From Zetaproteobacteria bacterium (GTDB lineage Bacteria > Pseudomonadota > Zetaproteobacteria > Mariprofundales > Mariprofundaceae): a DNA stretch of 43,694 nt. The position numbers and the translations under genes are program-made. The DNA lies in the NCBI GenBank assembly GCA_003233235.1, contig QILF01000039.1:1-43694 (forward strand). The letters run 5' to 3'. The notes under the pieces are model-generated. The model did no database searches. It was not told where the DNA came from and saw only the letters and a list, made by a program, of their open reading frames with translations. Shown here in pieces: positions 19,985-43,501 of the stretch. Each line of letters opens with the position of its first letter. The stretch's first letter is position 1.

Positions 19985-20141
19985 GAGCCACTTGCAAAAG
20001 TCTGGGTGGATGAGTTGCAATCCCACTTCGAGTGCGATTTTGAGTTGGAATGAGGTGAATGGTGGTTCCATTGAAATTCCAACTCAAAATCGCGCCGGAG
20101 TGGGGAAGCAAATCGCCGCTCACGACTTTTGCAAGTGGCTC
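19985..20141. repeat. Palindromic ~160-bp interspersed repeat, copy A
   Basis: Ends GAGCCACTTGCAAAAGTC...GACTTTTGCAAGTGGCTC (18-bp inverted repeat); inner perfect 16-bp stem GATTTTGAGTTGGAAT/ATTCCAACTCAAAATC; ATAA on both flanks. Confidence 0.92.
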
Positions 20142-20174
20142 ATAATAACAACTGTCAGCCGACAGCGTCTAACC

Positions 20175-28074: not shown

Positions 28075-28235
28075 GAGCCACTTGCAAAAGTCCGGGTGGA
28101 TGAGTTGCAATCCCACTTCGAGTGCACTTTCGGGTTGGAATGAGGTACATGGTTGTTCCATTCGGTGAAATCCCAACTCAAAATCGCGCCGGAACGGGAA
28201 AGCAAATCGCCGCACATGACTTTCGCAAGTGGCTT
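28075..28235. repeat. Palindromic ~160-bp interspersed repeat, copy B
   Basis: GAGCCACTTGCAAAAGTC...GACTTTCGCAAGTGGCTT; colinear with copy A throughout; one end reaches the carA stop codon. Confidence 0.9.
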
Positions 28236-40904: not shown

Positions 40905-41772
40905 TCAGCGAACTGCCTGACTGCGCTGCAAACGCTGTTCCATCCATTGCATCACCGGGCCAACCTCCGTATGCACATCATGCCACCAGTCGAACGAAGC
41001 CGCACCCTGCGCCAACAACATAGGCAAGCCATCCACCGCTCTGCGACCACCTGATCGCGCAGCAAGCACGAAGGGTGTCTCCCCGCTCGGAGTATAAACG
41101 ACATCCACGGCAATGCCATCGCCAGCGATGTGAAACGGAAACACCGCATCAACATCACCCAGTCCGATTGCCGTTGTATTAATCACCAGCGGACAGCGCC
41201 GAGTGCATGCCTCCACTTCCACAGTATCCCAAGGCACAACATCGAATGAGGTGTCGGAATAAGTTTTCGCGGCGTGTTGTAGCAAAGCATGCACACGATT
41301 TTCACTGCGATTGCAAATATGAATGTGTTGTGCACCACCAACCGCCAAAGCATGCAGCACAGCACGCGCTGTACCACCAGCGCCAATCACTAAAACTTCC
41401 TGATGACCTATATCCGCTTGCATGTCACGCAATACACTGGCAATGCCCCGCCAGTCGGTATTGATACCTTCCCAACCGTCATCAATGCGTCGCACGGTAT
41501 TCACCGCCCCGATAGCCGATGCATCGACATCCGCCTGCACCATAGCCAGCACTGTCTGCTTGTGCGGCACGGTAATGTTGAAACCCTGCACATCAGCCGC
41601 CCACAAACCGGCAAGCGCAGTTTCAACATCTGCAGATTGGACACACCACGGCACATACACGGCATCAATGCCGTGCTGTATAGCGAATCGAGCCTGAAAC
41701 AGCGGCGAAAGCGAATGCGAAACCGGATCGCCGATAATTCCAAACACGCTTGTTTTTCCAGTAACTTCCACG
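40905..41772 (-). CDS. aroE: Shikimate dehydrogenase
   Basis: VFGIIGDPVSHSLSPLFQARF; GFNITVPHKQ; IGAGGTARAV; ORF-track N-terminus reads into a 5S fragment, so a GTG start near 41772 is proposed. Confidence 0.9.
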
Positions 41773-41870
41773 TCTGTGCTAGCGTAGAATCTTAAATCGC
41801 ATATGTCAAAGTAGTGGCTGATTCGCGAATAGAACACAGCCCGGGTTGAAATTCTAGAACTGTAGAGCCA

Positions 41871-41917
41871 TTCCCCCATGGTGAACCCCGCAGTACCATC
41901 GGTGCGAAAGAGCTTAG
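41871..41917 (-). pseudogene. 5S rRNA pseudogene, 3' portion
   Basis: ttcccccatggtgaaccccgcagtaccatcggtgcgaaagagcttag matches the window's own 5S at 43331-43377 (~42/47 by eye). Confidence 0.88.
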
Positions 41918-42022
41918 GGCCTGTTAACACCAGTTTCGGTGTTATCGCTACCGTCCCCATTCATATGTTCATTCGCAATCATCACGACGATTTATGAATA
42001 GTACAGGCTAGCCGGATTCGTT

Positions 42023-42028
42023 TATACT
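42023..42028 (+). promoter_or_regulatory. Candidate -10 element (TATACT) of the HPP-family gene
   Basis: TATACT ends 8 nt before the ATG at 42036; no obvious Shine-Dalgarno; weak -35. Confidence 0.35.
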
Positions 42029-42035
42029 GGCCTGC

Positions 42036-42545
42036 ATGTTTAAACTGAAACGTCCGACATGGTTCCCCGAACCGGATCATCAACCTTTGCAATATATTGT
42101 ACTGGCCACGATCAGTGCTTTTGTATGCCTGTCCGCCATTGTGGTCGTTTGCCGTTATTTCCTACCCGGTATCGGTGCGCCGATACTCGCCGCATCTATG
42201 GGTGCGGCTGCCGTGCTGATGTTTGCTGCGCCAACCAGTCCTATGGCGCGAAGCTGGTCATTTATCATCGGCAACCTCGTTTCGGCATTGATTGGCGTAA
42301 CCGTCTTCCAATGGATTGGTGATGTTTTCTGGGCCGGAGCGCTGGCGGTTACAGTATCTATTTTCGTCATGCACTTCCTGCGTTGCCAGCATCCGCCCGG
42401 CGGTGCAACAGCATTGGTTGCCGTTATCGGCGGCGCGCAGGTGCATCAACTGGGTTATCTGTATGTCCTCGCCCCCATCGGTATCAATGTACTAATTTTT
42501 GAAATGTTCGTTTTAGTCAATCGACGTCTACAAGACAGGACCTGA
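42036..42545 (+). CDS. HPP-family integral membrane protein
   Basis: PILAASMGAAAVLMFAAPTSPMARSW; CQHPPGGATALVAVIGG signature; ~4 TM helices. Confidence 0.88.
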   Translation: MFKLKRPTWFPEPDHQPLQYIVLATISAFVCLSAIVVVCRYFLPGIGAPILAASMGAAAVLMFAAPTSPMARSWSFIIGNLVSALIGVTVFQWIGDVFWAGALAVTVSIFVMHFLRCQHPPGGATALVAVIGGAQVHQLGYLYVLAPIGINVLIFEMFVLVNRRLQDRT

Positions 42546-42562
42546 TAAAAACCCCATCGAAG

Positions 42563-42608
42563 TTTAGCTTCTGAGTTAGGAATGGGATCATACGTGACCT
42601 GCCTGCCG
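42563..42608 (-). pseudogene. 5S rRNA pseudogene, 5' portion
   Basis: tttagcttctgagttaggaatgggatcatacgtgacctgcctgccgta matches the window's own 5S near 43373-43420 (~40/48 by eye). Confidence 0.85.
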
Positions 42609-42629
42609 TAATTCAACATTCAAGACTTT

Positions 42630-42790
42630 GAGCCACTTGCAAAAGTCGTGAGCGGCAATCTGCTTCCCCACTTCGGCGTATTTCCAGGCTGAATCTTCGA
42701 GGCATAGAACCACCATGCCCCTCAATCCAGCCTGGAAATCCACTCAAAGTGGGATTGCATCTTATCCACCCAGACTTTTGCAAGTAGCTC
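42630..42790. repeat. Palindromic ~160-bp interspersed repeat, copy C (inverted relative to A and B)
   Basis: GAGCCACTTGCAAAAGTCGTGAGCGG...CACCCAGACTTTTGCAAGTAGCTC; inner stem TTTCCAGGCTGAA/TCCAGCCTGGAAA differs from copy A but is self-complementary. Confidence 0.92.
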
Positions 42791-43050
42791 CTTTGTATAT
42801 CAATAACGGTACTTTTCAGCACTCTTGATGAGTATATTCGAGCCGAGCATGACAACAATGGGGAAATGACTCATAAGTTCGCGCGCTTTGTAAAAGTCGG
42901 CGTCTTTGCGAAAACCCTGCAATACCTCGCTCAACATCAGATCGCCAATGATGATTTCCGTACCAAGGGCGTGATCTAGAACATGGGTTGCAGGCGCATG
43001 TAACCGTTGAAATAATCAATCTAGGCCGATGAATCAACAACCAGCCGCAT
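42791..43050 (-). pseudogene. vapC: vapC (PIN-domain toxin) pseudogene
   Basis: Minus strand reads MRLVVDSSA*IDYFNG, then after a frameshift HAPATHVLDHALGTEIIIGDLMLSEVLQGFRKDADFYKARELMSHFPIVVMLGSNILIKSAEKYRY*; C-terminus lost at repeat C. Confidence 0.88.
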
Positions 43051-43088
43051 CAGTGATCCGTACGCATGGCATCCAGATCATCATCCCA
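43050..43088 (-). pseudogene. vapB: vapB antitoxin remnant (C-terminal ~12 codons)
   Basis: Reads WDDDLDAMRTDH*, with TGA overlapping the vapC ATG (TGATG); upstream sequence replaced by half-repeat D. Confidence 0.65.
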
Positions 43089-43305: not shown

Positions 43306-43317
43306 GGGTAAAATTCC

Positions 43318-43427
43318 TGGCAACGACCTACTCTCCCATGGGGAACCCCACAGTACCATCGGCGCGAAAGAGCTTAGCTTCTGAGTTCGGGATGGGATCA
43401 GGCGTGACCTCTCTGCCATAGTCACCA
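43318..43427 (-). rRNA. rrf: 5S ribosomal RNA
   Basis: Minus strand TGGTGACTATGGCAGAGAGGTCACGCCTGATCCCATCCCGAACTCAGAAGCTAAG...TAGGTCGTTGCCA. Confidence 0.96.
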
Positions 43428-43501
43428 GGAAACTGGTAACAAGCAGGAAATTTGATGATGTTTTTATGATATGAATCATACCAATGTCTTAACGTTACAT
43501 G

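Follow-up and report, generated by a model that had tools for sequence, protein, structure and literature searches.

The target duplication YTAR is typical of IS5 (PMC10359306), MITEs derived from Tn3 mobilise the DNA that intervenes between them (PMC4133298), and mobile insertion cassettes constitute an established class (PMC3129680). On the Aeromonas plasmid pAC3, qnrS2 lies in such an inserted cassette, with a MITE upstream (PMC5444012). The capture of genes by MITEs is already known. The locus described here has MITE debris at a split 5S rRNA copy, around a gene of the HPP family. It lies in the window (the whole stretch of 43,694 nucleotides that was analysed) and comprises the following features:

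40908-41768, minus strand: aroE (shikimate dehydrogenase); its upstream neighbour is the 5S relic here but glmS in three congeners
41865-41917, minus strand: left fragment, from the 3' part of a decayed copy of the 5S rRNA, 46/53 identical to 43325-43377
41914-41917, no strand: TTAG of the left junction (TA plus the first G of the MITE terminal repeat), read from the sequence
41917-41960, plus strand: left end of a 266-bp MITE family with TA duplication, carrying the terminal repeat GGGCCTGTTAACAC exactly and aligning to complete copies in relatives
41972-42007, plus strand: right end of a MITE family of 160 bp whose terminal repeat is CCYGCATTATTCA and whose duplication is YTAR; its identity to other copies of this genome is 84-89%
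42008-42011, no strand: CTAG, the target duplication expected beside the second MITE end, as complete copies have exact YTAR duplications
42036-42545, plus strand: intact gene for an HPP-family membrane protein of 169 aa (Pfam PF04982, TM_HPP, E 1.9e-44)
42564-42567, no strand: TTAG of the right junction, with no MITE terminal repeat abutting on the HPP side
42564-42618, minus strand: right fragment, from the 5' part of the same decayed copy, 40/47 identical over 42564-42610 and weaker to 42618
42630-42790, no strand: 161-bp MITE of a third family with CTTT duplication, about 45 copies or pieces of which are in the genome
42834-43088, minus strand: relic of a vapBC-like toxin-antitoxin module; its DNA is 76% identical to that of an intact vapC locus elsewhere in the genome
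43268-43305, minus strand: terminator hairpin of the rRNA operon (12-nt arms, 92% complementary, T-run; fold z -4.0)
43315-43429, minus strand: functional 5S rRNA gene (Rfam RF00001, 102.5 bits)

The 160-bp family resembles the IS5-like YTAR MITEs in being short, multicopy and devoid of a transposase, and its complete copies in this bacterial family have paired terminal inverted repeats and exact YTAR duplications, several of them TTAG/TTAG. The window differs in that it holds only the right end of this family, which has many matching copies in relatives also, while the left end has been replaced by that of another family, such that 41917-42007 is a fusion of ends from two MITE families. The second partner, the 266-bp family, is found in 20 of 74 genomes of the bacterial family, where it has the terminal repeat GGGCCTGTTAACACTAATT and duplicates TA; 30 complete copies in the bacterial family are 120-308 bp long, and none of them bears a gene. 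The initial annotation had spoken of an inserted segment carrying an HPP-family gene. A complete gene of this family indeed lies between the two 5S halves, but the insert opens with the MITE fusion, which had been missed. An IS200/IS605-like insertion after TTAG, as might be read from a hairpin near 41927-41946, is ruled out by the inverted repeats and the duplication of the complete copies. Among the members of the bacterial family that were searched, terminal-repeat matches of the 266-bp family were most numerous (38) in one genome, G007, which may hold the cognate transposase. Furthermore, two species share the 31-bp stretch TCTC(G/C)AAGAATCTAGGGCCTGTTAACACTAA at unrelated loci (L127 and L128), so that a conserved outer flank may accompany solo MITE ends.

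With the qnrS2 mobile insertion cassette (PMC5444012), our locus shares a MITE situated upstream of the passenger gene and a position inside another gene. Here, however, the right-hand terminal repeat is missing, there is no second copy, and mobility is putative. The passenger of a mobile insertion cassette lies between two matching terminal repeats, and in the window none abuts position 42564. The TIME-COMP composites (PMC4133298) offer a further parallel, since the movement of DNA between two non-autonomous elements, one of which was later lost, would give such an arrangement; these composites, however, are derived from Tn3 and make 5-bp duplications, whereas the duplications here are TA or YTAR.

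Two consecutive halves of a 5S rRNA in the same orientation, both with TTAG at the break, had been proposed to flank the HPP gene, and alignment to the functional gene bears this out. The fragments 41865-41917 and 42564-42610, the latter pairing with 43374-43420, are consecutive parts of 5S in one orientation, meet at one point of the gene and overlap in TTAG only, though the right-hand TTAG had initially been placed one base too early. Whole-genome searches gave E-values of 1.8e-11 for the left and 3.3e-8 for the right fragment. Leftward of the right-hand TTAG at 42564, residual 5S similarity is absent (p about 0.4). Neither a longer right fragment, obtained by allowing a gap so as to match the CCATCG before TTAG, nor leftover 5S directly past the CTAG at 42011 was above chance. 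Both fragments have diverged by 13-15% from the live 5S gene, and the joined halves adopt a different and less stable fold (-28.1 versus -37.6 kcal/mol for the gene), such that significant 5S similarity is combined with loss of the continuous 5S fold, as in a 5S pseudogene. The split copy is missing from the Rfam matches, even at E 1.

At sites where relatives differ, the decayed copy agrees with the live 5S of its own genome (GGTCACG, TCTTTCGC), which argues for a recent, lineage-specific copy. The second 5S is a degraded, lineage-specific duplicate that is no longer functional. It had been suggested to look for an uninterrupted tandem 5S downstream of rRNA operons in relatives, and none was found in any relative examined; a tandem ancestral to the genus was rejected, as no second 5S-like sequence lies near the 5S in G001 or G003. 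Where other genomes were matched by both fragments, one intact 5S accounts for both matches. The split arrangement itself was found in no relative and is seen in one genome only.

The 5S gene has a single YTAR motif, at 43374, and this is where the break falls. The left junction, TA|GGGCCTGTTAACAC, matches the exact boundary of complete copies of the 266-bp family, and at the right junction (42564) no terminal repeat abuts. In about 13% of random-truncation trials, two 5S copies came to abut as closely, so that the abutment alone is weak to modest evidence; it is the break at the sole YTAR of 5S, together with a terminal repeat whose first base is the G of the left TTAG, that makes an insertion-type event the better reading. 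The nature of the target repeat is a different matter. TTAG flanks both sides, and the G on the left doubles as a base of the terminal repeat of the 266-bp family. If it was this family that inserted, the duplication is TA, and the T before the TA on the right is coincidental. If, on the other hand, the 160-bp family inserted, TTAG is a true 4-bp duplication whose right-hand element is gone. Since the right junction lacks a terminal repeat, the supposed target repeat is either TA plus coincidental bases or TTAG with a lost right element. Of the initial proposal, an insertion into a duplicated 5S gene with a 4-bp target repeat, the insertion holds up as the most economical account of the abutting halves, but the 4-bp repeat is possible rather than demonstrated. 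This calls for some caution, because target bases shared at such junctions may be contributed by MITE ends and are not necessarily proof that the intervening gene was simply inserted.

The gene order around the locus has also changed. In three congeners (G001-G003) it is glmU-glmS-aroE, and here aroE abuts the 5S relic at the end of the rRNA operon (41800-41870), which marks the site as a rearrangement junction. In this genome glmS is on contig C30, followed by genes that read as gyrA and serS.

Our preferred reading, which we hold to be somewhat better than an even bet, is that a MITE-associated segment with the HPP gene came into a spare 5S gene, at a site targeted by MITEs, through one insertion-type event. 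The second 5S copy would have arisen downstream of the one rRNA operon that the assembly shows, after the split from the sequenced congeners, at the junction to which aroE had moved from glmS. MITE-associated DNA would then have entered it at TTAG, bringing a terminal repeat exactly to the junction and, following the end of a second MITE, the HPP gene. One possibility is that the right-hand MITE end was lost later, for instance when it was precisely excised between the target duplications; another is that a surrogate end was used instead. The 5S duplicate would have decayed while HPP stayed intact. Directly observed are the fragments, the break site, the identities of the MITEs, the intact HPP gene and the displacement of aroE; that there was one insertion, that HPP travelled with the MITE and the way in which the right end disappeared are inferred. 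Counting against a single insertion are the missing right terminal repeat, the left and inner MITE ends of different families, which show the insert to be rearranged already, the lack of a gene-bearing copy among the 30 complete ones of the 266-bp family, the single occurrence of HPP with no sign of mobility and the chance of about 13% for the abutment; and since no gene-bearing copy of that family was seen, HPP is at most a possible MITE passenger, even though gene capture by MITEs is known.

The main rival account, to which we give a smaller but real chance, is that HPP was never inserted into 5S and was instead flanked by two separate 5S copies. The left copy would have been hit by a MITE at TA, its remainder being lost by a deletion that fused two MITEs next to HPP, and the right copy would have been truncated independently near the same place. 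This explains both the fused ends of two families and the missing right terminal repeat, chance would make the copies abut about 13% of the time, and some members of the bacterial family (G060, G049) have two rRNA operons 9-16 kb apart. However, it requires two extra 5S copies, the right one starting at the same, only YTAR, and no further trace of 5S lies between the copies. The arrangement rests on one draft assembly of 157 contigs, several of which end at copies of these MITEs, and it occurs in one genome only; the junctions could therefore be an assembly error at MITE repeats. We consider this improbable, because the fused MITE pieces contain no long identical stretch at which contigs could have been joined falsely, and, at 13-15% divergence, neither of the 5S fragments is a copy of the live gene. 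Least probable, to a degree that we would hardly credit it, is an organised mobile cassette in which HPP is a passenger moved by the cognate transposase of the MITE via a surrogate right end: a MITE end that coincides with the junction, the TTAG at either side and the existence of mobile insertion cassettes as a known class (PMC3129680) would agree with it, but there is no second copy, no recognisable right end, and no passenger-bearing copy of the 266-bp family was seen. Going beyond this locus, one may speculate, with considerable doubt, that the MITEs of this bacterial family pick up ordinary genes and move them into spare rRNA genes using a single MITE end and a surrogate for the other, the cargo here being a putative anion-transport membrane gene.

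As to the HPP gene itself, it runs antisense to the 5S between the two fragments. Its TM_HPP domain (residues 15-166) is full-length, scores 151.4 bits against a gathering score of 27.2, and the conserved columns of the protein are retained. In the tree, this divergent TM_HPP member has a long branch and is placed, with weak support (89/64), as sister to a group of proteins from the bacterial family, which is compatible with transfer of the gene as well as with its absence. The HPP proteins of the relatives group with Mariprofundus, so that the genome probably belongs to the Mariprofundaceae. The gene occurs once in the genome and has no sign of mobility. A search for HPP genes embedded in 5S elsewhere, as had been proposed, came up empty: among 118 HPP loci fetched, none except the window's own lies in or near a 5S or its relic. 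The closest congener has a longer HPP protein, encoded beside a gene that reads as nnrS-like.

Between the 5S relic and the live 5S sit the 161-bp MITE and the decayed vapBC module. Debris of mobile elements has piled up at this rearrangement junction, and the locus looks like local genome scrambling rather than a new type of gene arrangement. It illustrates, on a small scale but clearly, how MITEs, the duplication of a gene and rearrangement act together at the end of one bacterial rRNA operon. The 161-bp family, whose 4-bp duplications follow no obvious motif, is also present at 19985-20142 and with a single end at 28075 in the window of this 2-Mb genome. At 42834-43088 and L134:1472-2076, the vapBC relic was seen to be enclosed by ends of this MITE, and its intact homologue on contig C54 has copies of the 161-bp MITE on its flanks too, hinting that the toxin-antitoxin module moved together with these elements.
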